Positions 7,276 to 22,515 of a stretch of 46,960 nt of DNA are shown here, piece by piece. The stretch is from Candidatus Parcubacteria bacterium (GTDB lineage: Bacteria > Patescibacteriota > Patescibacteriia > CAIXNZ01), in assembly GCA_026395755.1 (NCBI GenBank), contig JAPLYC010000073.1, positions 1-46,960 of the forward strand. Reading direction: 5' to 3'. The translations under genes and the position numbers were made by a program. The notes under the pieces are model-generated. The model saw nothing but the letters and a program-made list of their open reading frames with translations. It was not told the DNA's origin and did not search any database. The first letter of the stretch is position 1, and every line of letters begins with the position of its first letter.

Positions 7276-7304
7276 TTGACAAAAAGTGAAATATATGCTA
7301 TTAT
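7276..7304 (+). promoter_or_regulatory. Strong promoter of the acidic orphan gene
   Basis: Perfect TTGACA (7276-7281), 17-base spacer and TATTAT (7299-7304), with an extended -10 TGC. Transcription would start near 7311, leaving a leader of about 63 bases before the ATG at 7374. Confidence 0.8.
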
Positions 7305-7373: not shown

Positions 7374-8060
7374 ATGCCGATTTCTGAGGATAATGGCGTT
7401 GCCGTGGAAACCGTAAACGACGATCGTCAGCGTTTCGAAGATCCGATGGGTATTTTCGCCGACTACGGCGAATACGACGATCGTTACACGGAAGAAGACT
7501 GGTGCGATGAAGATGATCGGCAACGGGATGAAGATCCGATGGGGATTTTCGCCGGTTACGGTGAATGCGACGATCGCTACTTCGCCGAGCCGCCGATGTG
7601 CAAATGGGAAGACGGCGACGATTTCCGGGACGAATGGCTGTACGGCGACGATTTCCCGACCCCGTTCAAGTTTGAAGGACTGGCAGTTCCCCCGCCCAAG
7701 CCCAAGCACGGTCTTACGGACATCGAGGAACTGGAGCATTCGCGGTATACCATGTACAAAAAGCGCTGCCGCGGCCAGAAGCCCAAGTATAAGGAGCAGC
7801 GCCGGAACCAGCGGTTCTCCACCATCCTGCATGTTCACGTCGAGCTGACCAGAGCGGAATGGTTTTTCTATGATCAGCGGAACGAGCAGCAGTACCGGCA
7901 ACAGCAGGATCGCGACATCGCGCTTTTTGAGCTCGAAGAGGCAATGGCGGCGACCGAGGAATATCTCCAGGATTGCTGCCACCCCGACGAACAGCTCGAA
8001 CTGGAGATCAGTCTTCACGAGCTGGAAATGCGTTACCGTCAGCTGGCCAAAGCCGCTTGA
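7374..8060 (+). CDS. Acidic orphan protein with a duplicated N-terminal motif
   Basis: I do not recognise this 228-residue protein. Its N-terminal part is very acidic and holds two direct copies of a unit of about 26 residues, each containing a DDRQR start, EDPMGIFA and a YGE-x-DDRY end (first copy from about residue 15, second from about residue 46). The C-terminal half is rich in Glu, Gln and Arg and predicted helical. There is no signal peptide, membrane segment or catalytic motif. Codon choice is much more GC-rich than in neighbouring genes. A strong promoter, an AAGGAGG site and a GC-rich terminator make it a self-contained, probably well-expressed single-gene unit, likely cytoplasmic. 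Recent transfer or selection on codon use are both possible. Confidence 0.7.
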   Translation: MPISEDNGVAVETVNDDRQRFEDPMGIFADYGEYDDRYTEEDWCDEDDRQRDEDPMGIFAGYGECDDRYFAEPPMCKWEDGDDFRDEWLYGDDFPTPFKFEGLAVPPPKPKHGLTDIEELEHSRYTMYKKRCRGQKPKYKEQRRNQRFSTILHVHVELTRAEWFFYDQRNEQQYRQQQDRDIALFELEEAMAATEEYLQDCCHPDEQLELEISLHELEMRYRQLAKAA

Positions 8061-8149: not shown

Positions 8150-8249
8150 CAAAATCTGCAGACAAGAATATCTGAAGAAGGAATAATCTAGCCGGAGCCG
8201 GATTGAAACCTTTTTCGGACACCCATGCTTATCGTGCCTGCAGATTTTG
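8150..8249. repeat. 12-bp perfect inverted repeat around a 76-bp spacer
   Basis: CAAAATCTGCAG (8150-8161) and CTGCAGATTTTG (8238-8249) are exact reverse complements. The 8113-8432 gap also holds a short imperfect hairpin (8123-8142), the possible gene remnant at 8225-8371 and the hairpin at 8367-8409. The inverted repeat could be the ends of a tiny non-autonomous element, but no target duplication was seen. Confidence 0.45.
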
Positions 8250-10860: not shown

Positions 10861-10892
10861 TTGACAACCCCCAGATGGTTTGTTACTATTAT
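10861..10892 (+). promoter_or_regulatory. Candidate rpoB promoter
   Basis: TTGACA (10861-10866) and TATTAT (10887-10892) are separated by 20 bases, longer than ideal. TATAAC at 10890-10895 is an alternative -10. The message would have a leader of about 120 bases. Confidence 0.4.
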
Positions 10893-14435: not shown

Positions 14436-17400
14436 ATGATTTTCAATCAAGCCAAGCCATTAGAATTTGACGGCATCAGATTAAAGCTAGCTTCTCCCGA
14501 AGTAATTAGAATCTGGTCGCACGGCGAAGTTACCAAGCCGGAAACGATTAATTATCGGACGCAAAAACCGGAAAAAGACGGCTTATTCTGCGAGAAAATT
14601 TTCGGGCCGTCTAAAGATTGGGAATGCTACTGCGGCAAATATAAAAAGATCAGGTATAAGGGGATTATTTGCGATAAGTGCGGCGTGGAAGTTACTCATT
14701 CCATGGTCAGACGCGAACGCATGGGGCATATTGAATTATGCTCGCCGGTTTCGCACATCTGGTTTTTACGCGGCGTGCCTTCACGCCTAGGTTTAGTTTT
14801 GGATATTTCCGTGCAAAGCCTGGAAAAGGTGATTTATTTTGCCAGCTTCATAATTACTAAAGTTAATCAGGAGCTGAAAGCCCAGGCAATGGAGCAGCTG
14901 AAGGAAGAATACAAAACTAAGAAAAAGCAGATAGAGGCTAATTTTAAAAACCGTGTCAATCAGATTAAAACCAATAAAAGTCTCAAGGAAAAAGAGCAGG
15001 ATAAAAAAATAATTGAATTAAACAAGGAAAGAGATCTGGAAGCAGCGGAATTCGAAAAAGAATATGTTAAAACCGAGACTGATTTAAAGGATCTAAAAAT
15101 AAAAAAAATTATTTCCGAGGATCAATATCAGGATTTGTCTCTTAAATTCGGCCATATTTTTGAAGTGGCCATCGGCGCTGAAGCGGTCAGAAAATTATTG
15201 GAGGTAATTGATCTGGAAAAATTAGTAAAAAGCTTGGACGCGGAATTAGAAGAGGCAATCGGCACCAAAAGAGAAAGAGCTGTTAAACGTATCAAGCTGG
15301 TTAAAAACTTGGTTAAAAATAAAATCAGGCCTGAATGGATGATTTTGAATATGATCCCCGTTATCCCGCCCGATTTAAGGCCAATGGTGCCTTTAGACGG
15401 CGGTCGTTTTGCCACCTCTGATTTAAATGATTTATATCGTCGCGTCATCAATAGAAATAACCGTTTGAAAAAACTGAAGGAATTAAATGCCCCGGAAGTT
15501 ATTATCCGCAATGAAAAAAGAATGCTTCAGGAAGCTGTTGATGCTTTGTTGGATAACAGCGCCAGACACTCAAAAACAACTACGGCTTCTACCGGCCAAA
15601 AAAGACAGTTGAAATCCATTGCTGATATTTTAAAAGGCAAGCAAGGCCGCTTCAGACAGAATTTACTGGGTAAACGTACTGATTATTCAGGCCGCAGCGT
15701 TATTGTCGTCGGTCCGAATTTGAAGTTGCACCAATGCGGTTTGCCCAAGCGCATGGCCTTGGAATTATTTAAGCCGTTTGTCATCAGTCAGCTCATTAAA
15801 CGTGAATTTGTCCATAATATCAGAAGCGCCAATAGGTTTATTGAAAGCAATCGTCCGGAAATCTGGGATATTTTGGAAGAAATAGTTAAAGACGCTCATG
15901 TCTTATTGAATCGCGCTCCGACTTTGCACCGTTTGGGCATCCAAGCTTTTAAGCCGATTTTAATTGAAGGTAAAGCTATTCACTTGCATCCTTTGGTTTG
16001 CGCTGCTTTTAATGCCGATTTTGACGGCGATCAGATGGCTGTTCATGTGCCTTTGACGGAACAAGCTAAAAACGAGGCCAAAGAATTGATGCTATCATCT
16101 AAAAATTTATTAAAGCCGGCAACAGGAAATCCTATCACCACTCCAAGAATGGATATTGTCTGGGGCTGCTATTATATAACGGAATTAAAGAGGTTGCGGG
16201 AAAAACCTCGATCTTTTGGTTCCTTTGAAGAAGCTGTTTTAGCTTATAACTCAAAGATCATTACTGTTTCTGAAGAAATTGAAGCCCGTGATATTTTACC
16301 GGGAAAAAAGAAACCGGAAAGAATTATTACCAATGTCGGCCGCATCTTATTTAACCGTTTATTACCTTCGGAAATAGGATTTTATAATGAACAGATAACC
16401 ACTAAAAATCTGGGTGATTTGATTAAATTTTCCCTGGAAAAAATGGGTAAGGATAGGACGGCCAGATTGCTTGATGACATTAAAGATCTTGGCTTTAAGT
16501 TTTTAACCCTAAGCGGTTATTCCTGGGGTATGGATGATTTGCCGGATTTAGTAGGTAAAAAGGAAATTGTAGATACCGGCGATCTCCAGATTGATGAAGT
16601 TAACGATCAGTTTCAGCAGGGTTTACTGACCAAGAGCGAGCGTCATTCAAAAATTATTGAAATTTGGACAGCAATTAAGGATAAAATCGTGCAGCTGGGC
16701 AAAGATTCATTGAATAAAGAAGGCCCGGTATATTCCATGGTAACTTCAGGGGCTCGCGGTTCCTGGACTCAGGTGACGCAGATGGTCGGGATGAAAGGCT
16801 TAGTGGCCAATCCGGCCGGTGAAATTATTGAACTGCCTGTCAAAGCCAGTTTCAAAGAAGGCTTTGATGTTTTGGAATATTTTATTTCTACTCATGGTTC
16901 CAGAAAAGGCTTATCAGATACTGCTTTAAGAACCGCCAATGCCGGTTATTTAACCCGTCGTTTAGTTGACGTTTCTCAGGACGTGGTAGTTCGTGAGGAA
17001 GATTGTGGCGATAAAAAAGGCATGCTTTATACTAAAAAAGATAGCGATGAAATCGGCGTTAATTTATTGGAGCGCGTCTGGGGCAGGGTTTGTCTGGAAA
17101 AAATTACCGATCCTAAAACAGGTGAAGTTGTCGTTGATAAAGATCAATTGATTACTGAAGCAGTAGTGCGCAAATTACAGCCCTTGAATCTGGAGCAGCT
17201 TACTGTCCGATCAGTTTTAACCTGCAAAATGACCAAAGGCCTTTGCACTAAATGTTATGGCTATGACCTGGGTTATAATGAAATGGTTAAATTGGGCGTA
17301 GCTGTAGGTATTATCGCGGCTCAAAGTATTGGTGAACCAGGCACCCAGCTGACCATGAGAACTTTCCATACTGGCGGTGTGGCCGGCACTGATATCACCC

Positions 17401-18323
17401 AAGGTTTGCCTCGCGTGGAAGAACTTTTTGAAGCTCGTCCGCCCAAACGCAAAGCAATTCTGGCTGAAGAAGACGGCCTAGCCACAATTTCTGATGCGCC
17501 GAAGAAAATTGAAGATGAAAAAGGCCGTGTCTTATTCAGCACTACCCATGGCCAAAAGATATTAAAGATAAAATTTGATGATGTGGAAGAGGACACCTAT
17601 TCTTTTAAAGGCCAATCCCCGACGCTGAAAGTCAAAGAAGGGGATAAGGTTTCTAAAGATGAAATCTTGTTTAAATTAGGCAAAACAGAAATGAAAGTTA
17701 AAAGACCAGGCGTGGTTAAAGTTACTGAAAAAACCGTAAAAGTAATCAGCAACGTTGAAAAGGAAAAAGAATATCTGATCCCGCAGGGCTATCGTTTATG
17801 GATCAATGACGGAGATTTTGTTAAAAAAGGCGATCAATTGACTGAAGGCAGTTTAGATTTACATCAATTATATAAGCTTAAAGGCCGCGATGAAGTCAAG
17901 CGTTATGTGGTTAAAGAAATCCAGTATATTTACGCTTCTCAAGGACAGCGTTTGAATGAAAAGCATATCGAAGTCATTATTAAGCAATTATTCAGCCGTG
18001 TCTTAATTAAAGATGCCGGGGATACCAATTTATTGCCCGGTGAAATCGTGGAAAAAGCTGAGATGGATGAAGCTAATATCGAGATTGATAAAACCGATGG
18101 CAAACACGCTACTTCTGAGGAATTATTTCTGGGCATTACCAAGGTTTCTCTGACCACCCGCAGTTTCTTATCGGCTGCTTCTTTTCAGGAAACTTCCCGT
18201 GTGCTGATTAATGCGGCTTTAACCGGTAAGATTGATAAGCTGGAAGGCTTGAAGGAAAATGTCATTATTGGCCGTTTGATTCCGGCCGGCACAGGTTTTA
18301 AAAGGAAGCCAAAGGAAGAATAG
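14436..18323 (+). CDS. rpoC: DNA-directed RNA polymerase subunit beta'
   Basis: RpoC carries the catalytic magnesium site. The NADFDGDQM motif is at residues 526-534 with its three aspartates. The N-terminal zinc site is visible at about 64-82 (C-Y-C-G and CDKCG), and the second zinc site lies near residues 855-945 (DCGDKKG, then CKMTKGLCTKCYG). The trigger loop region contains the GEPGTQLTMRTFHTGG motif. A Lys/Glu-rich coiled-coil insertion of about 95 residues (about 150-245) follows the clamp start and probably is lineage-specific. The length is 1295 residues. There is no Shine-Dalgarno sequence. It is co-transcribed with rpoB and ends in a terminator at 18349. Confidence 0.98.
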   Translation: MIFNQAKPLEFDGIRLKLASPEVIRIWSHGEVTKPETINYRTQKPEKDGLFCEKIFGPSKDWECYCGKYKKIRYKGIICDKCGVEVTHSMVRRERMGHIELCSPVSHIWFLRGVPSRLGLVLDISVQSLEKVIYFASFIITKVNQELKAQAMEQLKEEYKTKKKQIEANFKNRVNQIKTNKSLKEKEQDKKIIELNKERDLEAAEFEKEYVKTETDLKDLKIKKIISEDQYQDLSLKFGHIFEVAIGAEAVRKLLEVIDLEKLVKSLDAELEEAIGTKRERAVKRIKLVKNLVKNKIRPEWMILNMIPVIPPDLRPMVPLDGGRFATSDLNDLYRRVINRNNRLKKLKELNAPEVIIRNEKRMLQEAVDALLDNSARHSKTTTASTGQKRQLKSIADILKGKQGRFRQNLLGKRTDYSGRSVIVVGPNLKLHQCGLPKRMALELFKPFVISQLIKREFVHNIRSANRFIESNRPEIWDILEEIVKDAHVLLNRAPTLHRLGIQAFKPILIEGKAIHLHPLVCAAFNADFDGDQMAVHVPLTEQAKNEAKELMLSSKNLLKPATGNPITTPRMDIVWGCYYITELKRLREKPRSFGSFEEAVLAYNSKIITVSEEIEARDILPGKKKPERIITNVGRILFNRLLPSEIGFYNEQITTKNLGDLIKFSLEKMGKDRTARLLDDIKDLGFKFLTLSGYSWGMDDLPDLVGKKEIVDTGDLQIDEVNDQFQQGLLTKSERHSKIIEIWTAIKDKIVQLGKDSLNKEGPVYSMVTSGARGSWTQVTQMVGMKGLVANPAGEIIELPVKASFKEGFDVLEYFISTHGSRKGLSDTALRTANAGYLTRRLVDVSQDVVVREEDCGDKKGMLYTKKDSDEIGVNLLERVWGRVCLEKITDPKTGEVVVDKDQLITEAVVRKLQPLNLEQLTVRSVLTCKMTKGLCTKCYGYDLGYNEMVKLGVAVGIIAAQSIGEPGTQLTMRTFHTGGVAGTDITQGLPRVEELFEARPPKRKAILAEEDGLATISDAPKKIEDEKGRVLFSTTHGQKILKIKFDDVEEDTYSFKGQSPTLKVKEGDKVSKDEILFKLGKTEMKVKRPGVVKVTEKTVKVISNVEKEKEYLIPQGYRLWINDGDFVKKGDQLTEGSLDLHQLYKLKGRDEVKRYVVKEIQYIYASQGQRLNEKHIEVIIKQLFSRVLIKDAGDTNLLPGEIVEKAEMDEANIEIDKTDGKHATSEELFLGITKVSLTTRSFLSAASFQETSRVLINAALTGKIDKLEGLKENVIIGRLIPAGTGFKRKPKEE

Positions 18324-18348: not shown

Positions 18349-18379
18349 AACACTTCTCAGAAATGAGGGGTGTTTTTTT
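18349..18379 (+). terminator. Intrinsic terminator of rpoBC
   Basis: AACACTTCTCA pairs with TGAGGGGTGTT (two G-T pairs) around a GAAA loop, followed by seven T residues. It is 26 bases after the rpoC stop. Confidence 0.9.
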
Positions 18380-18381
18380 AT

Positions 18382-18474
18382 TTCGTTTATCGTATTACGG
18401 TTTCGGTTAACGTTTCGACAGACGTATTAAGTGATACGAAACGCCAAACGAAACCGAAGAACGTCTCACGAAAC
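18382..18474. repeat. Dispersed palindromic repeat, copy R2
   Basis: A member of the five-copy family, with TTCGTTTATCG and GGTTTCGGTTAACGTTTCG in the left half and ACGAAACGCCAAACGAAACC in the right half. It directly follows the rpoC terminator. An open frame of 64 codons crosses it but has no ribosome site and is taken as noise. Confidence 0.7.
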
Positions 18475-18560: not shown

Positions 18561-18589
18561 TTGACAAGTCTCTTTAGATATGATATTAT
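18561..18589 (+). promoter_or_regulatory. Strong promoter P1 of the structured-RNA locus
   Basis: TTGACA (18561-18566), 17 bases, TATTAT (18584-18589) with an extended -10 TGA. It would drive transcription into the 3.4-kb hairpin-rich region. Confidence 0.8.
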
Positions 18590-18625
18590 GGCAAATCACG
18601 CTAAAAAAGGGTAGAGATGCTCCTC

Positions 18626-18654
18626 TTGACAAAATGATTAAAACGTGCTATACT
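18626..18654 (+). promoter_or_regulatory. Strong promoter P2 of the structured-RNA locus
   Basis: TTGACA (18626-18631), 17 bases, TATACT (18649-18654) with an extended -10 TGC. It is 65 bases downstream of P1, giving a tandem pair. The predicted start is close to 18661. Confidence 0.85.
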
Positions 18655-18690
18655 TATAAAACATGAAATTTGAAAATTAAGCGATTTAGT

Positions 18691-18838
18691 GACCAGCAAT
18701 ATGGGGGTAGTAGTGCATTAGGGTCAGTAGAGTTTTCCGGCCCTGCTAGAAAACTTCTACGCCTGGTGTTTAACTGATAAGGCTCTGTCCTATATCAGTC
18801 GTTCCGCTTTGCGGGACAACACCTCCATATTATTGGTC
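18691..18838 (+). ncRNA. 148-nt multi-branched RNA element
   Basis: A long closing stem pairs 18691-18709 (GACCAGCAATATGG...) with 18820-18838 (...CCATATTATTGGTC) with few mismatches. Inside are a hairpin GTAGAGTTTTC/GAAAACTTCTAC (18727-18760) and a stem GTGTT/AACAC (18766-18822), which holds two hairpins, ACTGATA/TATCAGT and GTTCCGC-TTT-GCGGGAC. A further hairpin with ACAAAG-GGG/CCC-TTTGT arms follows at 18901-18928. It lies about 30 bases after the predicted start of transcription, so it forms the 5' domain of the locus. Confidence 0.65.
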
Positions 18839-18982
18839 ATTAAGTTCGAGATTCAGACTAAGGGCAATATAGAGTTCCATTCATTTAAATGTACTTTTAA
18901 ACAAAGCGGGACTCCTTGAGCCCTTTGTCGGGATCTTGAAAACTTTTATCTGTTCTCAAAACAACAAACAAAAGGAGGGGCA

Positions 18983-19111
18983 ATGAAAGCGTATGTCATG
19001 ATGACTAAAAACAGCATTGTGCGCCTAGTTCCTCTGGGACTGGCGCGGCACTACGAAAGGGTTGGCCTCGGAATGATCGTGGCCTTCCTGATCCATGGTC
19101 AGCTGCACTAG
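18983..19111 (+). CDS. 42-residue ORF with strong ribosome site
   Basis: The ATG is preceded by AAAGGAGGGG at good spacing and opens 42 codons. The peptide is basic at the start, contains LVPLGLARHYERVG and ends with a hydrophobic stretch (GLGMIVAFLIHG). I do not recognise it. It lies between the 148-nt branched RNA and the hairpins before the 281-residue protein gene, so it could be a leader peptide or a small functional protein. Confidence 0.5.
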   Translation: MKAYVMMTKNSIVRLVPLGLARHYERVGLGMIVAFLIHGQLH

Positions 19112-19140
19112 GCTGACACCAAATCAAGATTCGCAGCACG

Positions 19141-19283
19141 AGGGACTTACAAAAGTCCCTACTTCATCTCAAGACGGGATAGTCTCGTGTAGATTATTTT
19201 GTCTTGAGATGAGGTCTATAATGATGATCTTTCAAATTTATTGGTGGAGAAATCCACGCCCTATCAGGGAGAAATTCCTGATA
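19141..19283 (+). promoter_or_regulatory. Hairpin cluster before the zinc-ribbon protein gene
   Basis: Four structures are stacked here. They are a perfect 8-bp hairpin (AGGGACTT/AAGTCCCT), a 14-bp stem (19162-19175 with 19201-19214) enclosing ACGGGA-TAG-TCTCGT, GTGGA-GAAA-TCCAC (19244-19257), and TATCAGG/CCTGATA (19262-19283). The last one ends 7 bases before the AGGAGG of the next gene, so folding could affect its translation. Confidence 0.6.
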
Positions 19284-19302
19284 TAACCAAAGGAGGACTA
19301 CC

Positions 19303-20148
19303 ATGACTGATCCCAATACCACCCCGGCCACCGACACCCCGACCGAAACCGTGATCGAGCCCAAGGCTGAGGAACAGGTTTACACCTGCGCCTGCTGCGG
19401 ACACGAAGCCACGGCCGAAGACGGCGTGGTCACCGAGCAGGTGAACGGCAAGCCGAAGATCGTCGACGCGACCATGTGGGCCGCGGCCGGCGAAGTCGGA
19501 TCCGAAACCGTGCTCAAGGTCTTCTGCAAGACCTGCGCGACCGAGGGCAAAGAGGACGACGGACAGACGTTCTTCCCGCTGAAGAACGCCCTGGCCTATG
19601 CCGACCGCGTCAAACGGCACTTTCCCAAGCGCGAGCGTTTGCTCGAGCAGGCGAACGAGCCGGAGATGCGGCAGCCGCGTCCCGAGATGTTCTGCAAGCG
19701 GTGCGGAAAGCGCCACGGGCAGATCGATAACTATCGGGGCGGGGTGACCGTCATCCGCAGAGCCTACCGCGTCGACTTCAATCAGAAGCCGATCATCGCG
19801 GAGTTCCTGTGCGGTGAGTGCCTCACGGAGCTTGGGCTCGTGCCCAAGAGGAATTCCGACGGCAGCTTCACGCAGCCCGAGGGACTTTTTCCCCCGTGGA
19901 AGACGCTTCAGATCGCCCTGCATGCGGAGGACAATCGTCTCGATCGGATCGAGAGGGACAAAGCCAACAAGGCACGGCGTGAAGAACAGCGTCAGCGGGA
20001 CAAAGAACTGCGTGAGCGGGCCATGGCTCCCAAGGCCGCCCCGACCACGAAGGTCTTCCAGCGTCCCGTCAGGCACGAACCCCTGGGCAAGGCCGGCACC
20101 GGTTCCATCGGGAAACCCGCCAACCGCAAGGACGGCACTCGCGGCTAA
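19303..20148 (+). CDS. Orphan protein with four CxxC pairs (zinc-ribbon-like)
   Basis: The 281-residue protein is not recognised. After an acidic Thr/Pro-rich start it has C29-x-x-C32 and C75-x-x-C78, then C131-x-x-C134 and C170-x-x-C173. The spacing suggests two zinc-binding modules. The C-terminal third is charged and helical, and the tail is basic and Pro/Gly-rich, which would suit nucleic-acid binding. No nuclease, transposase or polymerase motif is visible. It has a strong AAAGGAGG site and very GC-rich codons compared with rpoC. It sits between the 5' branched RNA and the duplicated RNA units, so a role as a protein partner of that RNA is a reasonable but untested idea. Confidence 0.7.
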   Translation: MTDPNTTPATDTPTETVIEPKAEEQVYTCACCGHEATAEDGVVTEQVNGKPKIVDATMWAAAGEVGSETVLKVFCKTCATEGKEDDGQTFFPLKNALAYADRVKRHFPKRERLLEQANEPEMRQPRPEMFCKRCGKRHGQIDNYRGGVTVIRRAYRVDFNQKPIIAEFLCGECLTELGLVPKRNSDGSFTQPEGLFPPWKTLQIALHAEDNRLDRIERDKANKARREEQRQRDKELRERAMAPKAAPTTKVFQRPVRHEPLGKAGTGSIGKPANRKDGTRG

Positions 20149-20155
20149 CCGGTCG

Positions 20156-20422
20156 CTCTTTGGAAAAATCTTGGCTAAATGCCAAGTTGGGATAATGGTA
20201 GATATGCTACCAACCTAATCCCGTTAAACAACAGGTTACGAACATCCCAAATATTTTCAGTTAATTCTGGAATATATTGGGATACTTGGAGAGGATCCAA
20301 TCTGCGAAAGCAATGATGGTCAAAGACCATTCTATTACTTAAGCAGACATCCCGTCGGGTAGAGACATTTACTGTCCTGCCCTACTTTCTGAGACCGTAA
20401 AGCAATTTGCGGTTTGAGAAAG
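20156..20422 (+). ncRNA. Structured RNA unit, copy A
   Basis: This 267-nt unit begins 8 bases after the zinc-ribbon gene. Helices in order are CTTGGC/GCCAAG, TGGTAG/CTACCA, AACCT/AGGTT, a long hairpin (about 20244-20283), TTGGA/TCCAA, TCTGC/GCAGA enclosing ATGGTC-AAA-GACCAT, GGGTAG-A-GACA/TGTC-CTGCCC, and a final CTTTCT/AGAAAG hairpin. The last 39 nt are identical to those of copy B. Confidence 0.7.
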
Positions 20423-20490
20423 TGAGCCCTTGACAGAATTAATAATTCTTGCTAAGCTTGCAAAGGAATTTTCCCGAGATGCCCCGTTGG

Positions 20491-20759
20491 CTCTCTGAAA
20501 AGATCTTCGCCTGATGCGGAGTTTGGGCAAATGGCTGCTTTGACAGCCAACCTGGCCCTGAAAAACGAAAGGTTTTGACAACGTTCCTATTATTCCCTGG
20601 GGAATATAGAGAGGAACACATTGGAGAGGATCCAAATCTGTTGCGGCAATAATGGAAGGTTAACAACTATTCCTGCGCCAAAACAGGCAAATCTCCAGGG
20701 GCGAGACCTAGTTTCGCCCAACTTTCTGAGACCGTAAAGCAATTTGCGGTTTGAGAAAG
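20491..20759 (+). ncRNA. Structured RNA unit, copy B
   Basis: This 269-nt unit is a diverged tandem copy of A, 335 bases downstream. Stems are kept while bases change: CTTCGC/GCGGAG replaces CTTGGC/GCCAAG, TGGCTG/CAGCCA replaces TGGTAG/CTACCA, CTGTT/AACAG replaces TCTGC/GCAGA, and GGGCGA/TCGCCC replaces GGGTAG/CTGCCC. The TTGGAGAGGATCCAA hairpin and the final 39 nt are unchanged. Such compensating change supports selection on RNA structure. Confidence 0.7.
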
Positions 20760-20791
20760 ACAAAGGTTAAAAAGTTCATATAACCTTGCCA

Positions 20792-20871
20792 CCTTATCCT
20801 AGAACGGAAAGCTTGATAAAGTAATTAAATGCTGATTCAGCAGAAAAACAAGTTTGCGTTCTTAGATAAGG
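20792..20871 (+). ncRNA. Long-range stem after the duplicated RNA units
   Basis: CCTTATCCTAGAAC (20792-20805) pairs with GTTCTTAGATAAGG (20858-20871) with one mismatch, enclosing a TGCTG-ATT-CAGCA hairpin. A smaller AAGGTT/AACCTT stem precedes it. It continues the chain of structures of the locus. Confidence 0.5.
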
Positions 20872-20905
20872 AAGTATTTTGAAAATATTTTAAAAAGGAG
20901 GACGT

Positions 20906-20977
20906 GTGAACCGGAAGGCTTTTTTTTGCGGCAAAATCAGGGGACCGCCCCTGAGTAAGTTCGAGGAGACAGGATAA
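20906..20977 (+). CDS. 23-codon ORF with strong ribosome site
   Basis: A GTG start follows AAAAAGGAGG at suitable spacing and opens 23 codons, including FFCGKIRGPPLSKF. The stem TCAGGGG-ACCG-CCCCTGA lies inside it, so translation would have to open this hairpin. It is too short to judge as a protein. Confidence 0.35.
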   Translation: MNRKAFFCGKIRGPPLSKFEETG

Positions 20978-21006
20978 AACTCCCGATCGACGCCAAAGGA
21001 GCCAAT

Positions 21007-21042
21007 ATGCGCTGGAAATTCAAGTTGAGCGCGGGGACCTGA
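21007..21042 (+). CDS. 11-codon mini-ORF
   Basis: An ATG behind AAAGGAG encodes MRWKFKLSAGT. The ORF ends in a GGGG/CCCC hairpin. It is supported only by the ribosome site and by the series of similar mini-ORFs around it. Confidence 0.2.
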   Translation: MRWKFKLSAGT

Positions 21043-21207
21043 GACCCCGAGTACACTCAGGTACTGGTAAAGAGCAATTTTTATCAGTAAGGTAATGTAG
21101 TCGTGTCAGCCTGGATACGTGATCATCGCCCAGCTCGGGCAGATTCGCGGATCTTGACGCGGCGAGGTACTGCGCTCCAAAATCACCGGGAACCATACGG
21201 AGGTACT

Positions 21208-21234
21208 ATGACCTTCCCAAGCGGTTTCACCTAG
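21208..21234 (+). CDS. 8-codon mini-ORF
   Basis: An ATG behind CGGAGGTACT encodes MTFPSGFT. It may be a structural accident in the RNA; listed because it is one of several SD-led mini-ORFs in this locus. Confidence 0.2.
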   Translation: MTFPSGFT

Positions 21235-21282
21235 TTACTTAGCTCACTCACCCCGGGCCGAAGATGCCCTCTGTGAAGCTTC

Positions 21283-21340
21283 GGACTGTACGCTGCTGCT
21301 TACCGGCATAGGTTTGCCGGACACATCCAGGCAGCAGTCC
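21283..21340 (+). ncRNA. Nested hairpin GGACTG...GCAGCAGTCC
   Basis: GGACTG and GCTGC near 21283-21296 pair with GCAGCAGTCC (21331-21340), enclosing CCGGCA/TGCCGG (21303-21320). It is preceded by CCGAAG/CTTCGG and followed by GGTTTGA/TCAAACC, which encloses GGGC/GCCC. Together these form a compact folded domain at about 21258-21390. Confidence 0.5.
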
Positions 21341-21425
21341 ACGGCTGGTTTGACACACTGGAACCGGGCGCCATGCCCATCGTTCAAACCAACTCACCGC
21401 TTCTCCATACCTCGGAGGACAAACA

Positions 21426-21470
21426 ATGCCTGAATTACGGCTCTTGTCTCGGGGTTCCTGGATCCCCTGA
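21426..21470 (+). CDS. 14-codon mini-ORF
   Basis: An ATG behind CGGAGGAC encodes MPELRLLSRGSWIP and ends within a GGGGTTCC/GGATCCCC hairpin. The hairpin CTGCTC/GAGCAG follows shortly after. Low confidence as a real peptide gene. Confidence 0.2.
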   Translation: MPELRLLSRGSWIP

Positions 21471-21743
21471 ATGCAAAAATAAAAACCAGGGACAGCCTGC
21501 TCGAAGATTTTGAGCAGCCGACAAAGAAGCCAGAACGTTTGGGTTCATAAATCTTTGGACTGTCTGCTCGATAGAGTAGGCCCCAAAGTGACTCGAACGT
21601 TTAGGCGAAAAACACTCCTTGCAGAACTCTAAAAAGGGATTAGACAGTTACGACCGGCCAAGTGCCTAACTAACTAGTCATCCCACACAAGTAAGATAAA
21701 GAGATTCTGGCAAGGAACCGACTTTAATAAAGAAGCACGCATC

Positions 21744-21957
21744 GCCGGACCCGGCACCGAGTTTTCGGTAGCCTTCCCGGCACGCTTTCAGGCCCACCCG
21801 ACGCCTTACCGTTGCAACGCGAAGTCGTTGACGGCCCCGCCGAACCCGGCACTTGCGCTGACTCCTTGTCGAGCGCTCCGCCGAACCGGCAGTATCCTTA
21901 CGGGTAGCGGCCAGACCAGGGGCCGGGGTGCGAGACGCTACGTTTCGCCCCCGGCCC
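21744..21957 (+). ncRNA. GC-rich terminal domain of the structured-RNA locus
   Basis: Base composition jumps to strongly GC-rich here. The first hairpin (21744-21781) stacks GCCGG/CCGGC, GGC/GCC and ACCGA-GTTT-TCGGT. The last (21919-21957) pairs GGGGCCGGGG with CCCCCGGCCC. The stretch between them also offers several GC pairings. A minus-strand open frame of 93 codons crosses it, but its composition is explained by the stems. Confidence 0.55.
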
Positions 21958-22037
21958 ACGCACTAGATTAATCGAGAAAACAGGAAAAAGAAACAGAGGA
22001 GACTTCTAGCCCTTTCAGTCACCTAAAGAGAAAGGGG

Positions 22038-22065
22038 CGCCAAGTGTAACAGCTTGGCGTTTTTT
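22038..22065 (+). terminator. Intrinsic terminator of the structured-RNA locus
   Basis: CGCCAAG and CTTGGCG form a perfect 7-bp stem with an 8-nt loop, followed by six T residues. Confidence 0.9.
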
Positions 22066-22068
22066 AAT

Positions 22069-22158
22069 TTCGTCACACGATTATCGGTATCGGTTTACGT
22101 TTCGGCTAGCGGTTAACGTACAACGTAACGTTTACCTACACCGTTTAACGACAAACGA
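22069..22158. repeat. Dispersed palindromic repeat, copy R3
   Basis: The most diverged of the five copies, with ATTATCGGTATCGGTTTACG at the left and CGTTTAACGACAAACG at the right. It lies between the structured-RNA terminator and the terminator of the HU gene. Confidence 0.6.
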
Positions 22159-22195: not shown

Positions 22196-22218
22196 ATATG
22201 TGGGTAGTAGTTTATAGA

Positions 22219-22515
22219 TTAAGCCGCGGGAGCTTCTTTTTTCTTCAAGGCATCTTTTAAGGCCTTGCCGGATTTAAATTTGGGAATAATAACTTCAGGA
22301 ATGTCGATTTTTTCAGAAGGTTTTTGAGGATTAACGCCTTTGCGCGCGTGTCTGATTTTGGCTGAAAAAGTGCCAAAGCCGGTTAAGACGACTTCTTCGT
22401 TTTTTTGCAAAGATTCAATGATGGAATCCAGCATGGTTTCCAAAACCTCCTCAATCTGTTTTTTTGTTAATTTTGTTTTTGAGGCTACGACCTCAATTAG
22501 AGCGGCTTTGTTCAT
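22219..22515 (-). CDS. hup: DNA-binding protein HU
   Basis: HU bends and compacts DNA as a dimer. The 98-residue protein starts MNKAALIEVVASKTKLTKKQ and has the family core GFGTFSAKIRHARKGVNPQ followed by a beta-arm with IDIPEVIIPKFKSGKALKDAL. The short Ala-rich tail KKKEAPAA is extra. There is no Shine-Dalgarno sequence; instead a tandem series of TAAGGTT-like units lies directly upstream of the ATG. Confidence 0.97.
   Translation of the reverse strand: MNKAALIEVVASKTKLTKKQIEEVLETMLDSIIESLQKNEEVVLTGFGTFSAKIRHARKGVNPQKPSEKIDIPEVIIPKFKSGKALKDALKKKEAPAA

Follow-up and report, generated by a model that had tools for sequence, protein, structure and literature searches.

The transcription unit between rpoC and HU

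The 46,960-nt stretch of DNA analyzed here (the window) is contig C8 of the 1.46-Mb genome of a Candidatus Parcubacteria bacterium (G000). The assembly has an estimated contamination of 6.6%; the contig is nonetheless backed by synteny with relatives. The interval between rpoC (14436-18323) and HU, a convergent gene at 22219-22515, holds a modular transcription unit (18561-22065) that is mostly noncoding, heavily structured and without a counterpart in Rfam (Table 1). The original prediction, made from the sequence alone, was of a giant structured RNA, possibly with a 281-aa CxxC protein (p281) as its partner, or of a new kind of RNA/mini-peptide locus. The evidence presented here consists of genome sequences, with a leader alignment of eight genomes and shallow protein alignments.

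The gene order of the window (rpoC, then 2.6-4.8 kb, then HU and YmdB) recurs in six relatives (G001, G003, G004, G005, G007, and G008). Two other loci (G002 and G006) are broken by contig ends, and the family set comprises nine genomes including G000. Relatives with the same 51-nt hairpin (described below) are Buchananbacteria, Falkowbacteria, and "Parcubacteria" metagenome-assembled genomes, which, like the window genome, we take to be ABY1 Patescibacteria. Outside the family, most of 27 loci with a post-rpoC stretch have an open reading frame (ORF) of at least 100 aa starting no more than about 280 bases after rpoC, by a mechanical count in which some contigs end early. The unit at this site is thus probably family-specific. 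Among the papers searched, none describes the rpoC-HU locus.

Two promoters head the unit, P1 and P2, and both have the perfect -35 box, 17-base spacer and extended -10 element that had been predicted. Promoters of this type occur at the locus head in all seven relatives in which the left end is assembled. The same type occurs elsewhere in the genome, e.g., before rpoB at 10861, and is an ordinary strong one, so P1 and P2 suggest strong transcription rather than anything peculiar to the locus. The predicted intrinsic terminator is also present, although a simple terminator scan did not list it. Sequences of about 50 bp that are 80% alike occur at 18369-18417, right after the rpoC terminator, and at 22056-22104, after that of the unit.

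Folding energies, scored as z values against dinucleotide shuffles, bear out near-continuous stable structure: z is far below the shuffles over most of the noncoding part (-8.1 for the leader, -7.5 for the 51-nt hairpin, -5.2 for 21500-21740, and -4.6 for 21740-21960; see Table 1 for units A and B) and normal in rpoC (0.0) and rpoB (+1.3). No Rfam family reached its gathering score in the window, in six sibling loci or in three related loci, in a test that took in OLE, GOLLD, ROOL, HEARO, raiA, RNase P, tmRNA, and the group II intron. A scan at relaxed E-value gave only weak matches, which lie beyond the unit at the terminator of rpoC. The claim that this is not a known RNA therefore held. The claim of a single long gene in otherwise noncoding sequence held in part: the unit is mostly noncoding, but it has several likely translated ORFs (the 42-aa ORF, p281, and micro-ORFs behind AAGGAG or GGAGG, all predicted), and about 30% of it is protein coding.

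Table 1. Positions in the window of the features of the rpoC-HU unit
Feature	Position	Strand	Description
Promoter P1	18561-18589	+	TTGACA-17-TATTAT, TG extended; equivalent in 7 relatives
Promoter P2	18626-18654	+	TTGACA-17-TATACT, TG extended
Leader RNA domain I	18686-18842	+	Closing stem, invariant GGGGGU:ACCUCC helix, three hairpins, unpaired GUAGUAGU; covarying helices, 8 genomes
Leader RNA domain II	18845-18940	+	Long hairpin, conserved AAAUGUACUUUUUA loop
42-aa ORF	18983-19111	+	After AAAAGGAGGGG
51-nt/23-bp hairpin, putative control element	19161-19215	+	Core AATAGTC UCGUGUA GATTATT; covariation
p281, Zn-ribbon-type	19303-20148	+	8 invariant Cys in four CxxC
Structured RNA unit A	20170-20426	+	z -8.3; paralog of unit B
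Internal promoter P3, weaker	20430-20458	+	TTGACA-17-TAAGCT, TG extended (TGC); similar internal promoters in G001, G003
Structured RNA unit B	20488-20763	+	z -4.9; compensatory differences vs. unit A
Hairpin element X, then AAGGAGG	20789-20884	+	Conserved in G001 (80%), G006 (86%)
23-aa GTG-start micro-ORF	20906-20977	+	
Micro-ORF MRWKFKLSAGT	21007-21042	+	End inside pseudoknot 1
Pseudoknot 1	21033-21062	+	GGGG/CCCC + CCUGAG/CUCAGG; compensatory CCUGGG/CCCAGG in G006
Micro-ORF MTFPSGFT	21208-21234	+	SGF peptides in 6 genomes, Ser/Gly/Phe codons differing
Pseudoknot 2	21255-21283	+	
Micro-ORF MPELRLLSRGSWIP	21426-21470	+	End inside pseudoknot 3
Pseudoknot 3	21451-21490	+	GGGG/CCCC + CCUGG/CCAGG
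GC-rich structured 3' region	21491-21975	+	z -4.6 to -6.9
Intrinsic terminator	22038-22065	+	CGCCAAGU-GUAACA-GCUUGGCG-UUUUUU; from fold and by eye

Leader RNA and intercistronic hairpin

The leader is about 255 nt long and can be aligned in eight genomes over about 330 columns. RNAalifold predicts 77 pairs for this alignment, 32 of them with both sides changed (7-15 in slid controls), and on every measure the covariation is higher than in any of 500 shuffles. Nine of the ten helices have support, the exception being helix 2 (GGGGGU:ACCUCC), which is nearly invariant; the unpaired GUAGUAGU and the loop AAAUGUACUUUUUA are among the invariant unpaired elements. Covariation in the relatives thus bears out RNA structure, as had been predicted. 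In all eight genomes the leader follows the promoter and precedes the first ORF with a Shine-Dalgarno (SD) sequence, so that a covarying 5' untranslated region (UTR) occupies the place of a structured cis-regulatory leader.

A covariance model of domain I (R2) found the leader in eight of the nine family genomes. Among 381 genomes of the class that were searched, full-length matches beyond the family were weak and came from two genomes of family f13 (27.7 and 25.1 bits). One of these, G020, has three domain I-like modules in a 2.2-kb structured RNA array that also has a strong promoter and a single ORF of 63 aa; despite the weak scores, these modules are likely related to domain I. Structured RNA modules closed by GGAGG:CCUCC helices form arrays in G020 (L069, 4250-6300) and in G061 (L070, 4800-6496), with a small ORF that differs between the two genomes. 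Both arrays are flanked by what appear to be a GspE-like gene and MurJ.

Beside the HU stop codon, ATATGTGGGTAGTAGT (22196-22211) repeats the invariant ATATGGGGGTAGTAGT of the leader (18699-18714), making the 3' UTR of the HU mRNA complementary to the leader. Complementarity of GUAGUAGU to this UTR was found in six of eight genomes, from only three genera, and could reflect chance or shared ancestry.

Downstream of the 42-aa ORF stands the covarying 51-nt hairpin, with a 23-bp stem, a conserved core and the loop UCGUGUA. Its model (R1) found one copy at the locus in seven of the nine family genomes, three more copies on another contig of the window genome (C89), and one strong copy on another contig of G001; beyond the family there were just two marginal matches. 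On C89 (L030, 7100-8720) we observed a three-gene operon of GC-rich orphan ORFs, each behind a 51-nt hairpin and a strong SD. Placement before SD-led ORFs points to a cis element, which may serve in processing, protein binding or anti-termination. By reading, the hairpin arms (CTCATCTCAAGAC/GTCTTGAGATGAG) lack the integron attC ends RYYYAAC/GTTRRRY.

Elsewhere in the window (8156-8249, minus strand) is a variant copy of a class-wide, rod-shaped noncoding RNA, the CACGACAAGCAUGGG RNA, which is absent from Rfam and was not found described in the literature search. It has a 10-nt 5' bulge (CGAYAAGCAU) and is closed by a terminator-like stem. The exact 15-mer of the bulge, CACGACAAGCATGGG, occurs in 222 of 381 class genomes at about one copy each (reversed control, 0 in the genomes listed). 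The leader lacks the rod bulge RCGAYAAGCAUGGG. We dropped orthology between leader and rod RNA because the window holds this stand-alone rod copy; the shared apical CCGGC-N4-GCUNGA hairpin allows for a paralog at most. Small signal recognition particle (SRP) RNA (RF00169) and 6S RNA (RF00013) went undetected at E<=1 in G000 and eight other class genomes, and SRP RNA was detected in 13 of 14 control genomes. The rod RNA might replace one or the other. As identities for the leader, 6S and SRP RNA were rejected: their models were blank in the nine class genomes and, by reading, the leader lacks their motifs.

Fast-evolving proteins and the 3' modules

An ORF of 34-53 aa stands at the place of the 42-aa ORF in six of seven relatives. 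It is again 42 aa long in G001, G003, and G004, and the sequences are mostly unrelated. Homologs of p281 were identified in G001 (two copies), G004, and G005, with identities of 17-29% versus 76-86% for rpoC. G015, from another family, has a distant homolog next to rpoB, preceded by a similar promoter, a structured RNA and a 48-aa ORF. In G003, G007, and G008 an unrelated protein of 313-331 aa takes the position of p281, which is therefore not an obligate partner. Neither p281 nor the replacement has a significant match in Pfam, NCBIfam, PHROGs, PADLOC or PDB, and for p281 Foldseek gave no significant match either. The AlphaFold models are poor (mean pLDDT of 59 and 46). The leader, the hairpin and the proteins all represent new families.

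Judging from the sequences, the RNA at this locus is better conserved than the proteins, as would be expected if the RNA were the product. In the main rival explanation, the leader and RNA modules form a large, trans-acting, OLE-like ribonucleoprotein (RNP) bound by p281 or its replacement, with the ORFs being incidental or encoding partners. The distant domain I relatives in G020, where three or more modules form an array that has a single small ORF, are in keeping with such an RNP, as is the complementarity of the invariant unpaired GUAGUAGU to the HU mRNA. An RNP sits poorly with the reuse of the hairpin before other genes, with 3' modules that are reshuffled and cannot be aligned family-wide, and with a candidate partner protein that is not conserved. 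We consider it possible but doubtful.

The GC content at third codon positions (GC3) of p281 is 0.82, versus 0.32-0.46 for housekeeping genes. Across the family, GC3 of the cargo genes is 0.50-0.89, versus 0.18-0.48 for rpoC in the same genomes, and the high GC3 is kept in all genomes. Adaptation to very high expression was rejected as the cause, since groEL (GC3 0.41) has no such shift; adaptation to a GC-rich host is pure speculation. A GC-rich island in an AT-rich genome, its rapid turnover, the similar sequences at both flanks and the ordinary-sized ORF soon after rpoC in most other class families could also mark a mobile or selfish element, or a phage or satellite remnant, between rpoC and HU. 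Against this, the high GC3 is kept in all genomes, and the unit has no integrase-sized gene, no match to phage families and none in phage and viral collections. The site is identical family-wide, and this vertical synteny already weakens the idea, which we judge very improbable.

An orphan 228-aa ORF at 7374-8060 of the window (about 58% GC) has an internal repeat (EDPMGIFA.YGE.DDRY), a strong SD and an extended -10 promoter at 7276. It looks like a member of the same GC-rich orphan class as p281.

Downstream of p281 lie units A and B, which are diverged paralogs, and a 3' half that is a reshuffled mosaic with no family-wide alignment. Conservation of the locus is thus modular, with the leader in eight genomes, the hairpin dispersed and the 3' half rearranged; the proposed single giant folded RNA is not supported, and the best fit is the alternative offered with it, a new kind of RNA/mini-peptide locus.

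SD-led ORFs of 6-80 aa are fourfold more frequent in sense than antisense orientation across the family (43 versus 10). Eight of these small ORFs, from six genomes, contain Ser-Gly-Phe (SGF), usually as a C-terminal SGFT or SGFA (e.g., MTFPSGFT, MRFPSGFT, and 48-50-aa ORFs that end in YASGFT or YTSGFA). This amounts to 8 occurrences per 1254 residues of small SD-led ORFs, versus about 0.4 expected from other frames. The use of AGY as well as TCN codons for serine (AGC, AGT, TCG, and TCC) is an argument for selection at the peptide level. Seven matches to a strict H-type pseudoknot pattern were found, two of them overlapping, versus 0.23 in shuffles and none antisense, and two of the three pseudoknots in G000 overlap the stop codon of a micro-ORF.

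Every element stands closely upstream of an SD-led ORF, and the promoter type is normal for the genome. The unit might therefore be several ordinary, undescribed cis-regulatory leaders or attenuators lined up in a single orphan-gene operon. The density of elements, the paralogy of A and B, the stop-codon pseudoknots and the synteny of the whole unit exceed what is usual for an operon, and we find this explanation unlikely.

Interpretation and comparison with known systems

Our preferred reading, held tentatively and at somewhat less than even confidence, is that the locus is a strongly transcribed polycistronic unit in which a conserved structured RNA controls the expression of fast-evolving small proteins. 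The position and covariation of the leader, the hairpin before genes on C89 and in G001, the conservation of RNA alongside diverging or swapped proteins, the SGF peptides, the pseudoknots and the G015 layout all favor it. From these we infer regulatory steps and product functions. RNA polymerase would start at P1 and P2, and the leader would fold at once and gate or protect the message at its 5' end; one strand of the invariant GGGGGU:ACCUCC helix in the leader is anti-SD-like. The small ORF after the leader would then be translated. The intercistronic hairpin may be a processing, protein-binding or anti-termination site that gives p281 its own message end, and P3 would start a second transcript across unit B and the 3' part, where pseudoknots on micro-ORF stop codons may signal that those ORFs are being translated. 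The RNA frame would be kept while the cargo (the 42-aa ORF, p281 or its replacement, and the SGF peptides) turns over fast.

Several points weigh against this RNA-controlled polycistronic unit. Cis regulators normally guard a conserved gene, and the ORFs apparently guarded here are not conserved. Sequestration of the SD by the leader was considered and dropped: in every fold the CCUCC strand pairs completely inside the leader, and where the SD is partly paired, its partner is a different strand, so the folds give no sign of an SD switch. The dispersed hairpin leaves units A and B and the GC-rich 3' half unexplained.

A bolder proposal is that the locus represents a new class of modular RNA-micropeptide locus. 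Its conserved scaffold (SD/anti-SD helices, pseudoknotted micro-ORFs, and SGF peptides) would gate ribosomes and act in trans, e.g., on the HU mRNA, with a cargo shaped by an arms race. We regard this as rather unlikely, taken jointly with its corollary that related arrays occur in at least two further families of the class.

Patescibacteria have reduced genomes, yet this family retains 3-5 kb of highly structured RNA beside rpoC, and micro-ORF peptides escape annotation. Should the RNA prove to be the conserved core, with the proteins as variable cargo, the locus would offer a testable entry to the control and deployment of small proteins in presumed epibionts.

Like OLE, GOLLD, ROOL, raiA, and HEARO, the unit contains long, heavily structured bacterial RNA. 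It differs from these in its lack of an Rfam match, in its many short modules rather than one fold, in its several ORFs and in its replaceable protein. OLE RNA works with partner proteins (PMC12265935, PMC12286853). The conserved adjoining partner gene of an OLE-type RNP is not found here, where p281 is swapped in three relatives. Type III toxin-antitoxin systems (ToxIN) likewise have a small protein gene next to an RNA that is structured or pseudoknotted; Tandem Repeats Finder (TRF) detected no tandem repeat array at the locus, and p281 matches no ToxN-type endoribonuclease or other defense model in PADLOC or Pfam. Hairpins for processive anti-termination or RNase processing (put, EAR, and RNase III sites) are intercistronic in structured operons. 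The 51-nt hairpin shares this placement with them, a likeness of position alone, with no known sequence relation. Riboswitch and attenuator leaders differ in that no known class was matched and the downstream gene is not conserved; they share with this locus a conserved multi-helix 5' leader before an SD-led ORF.

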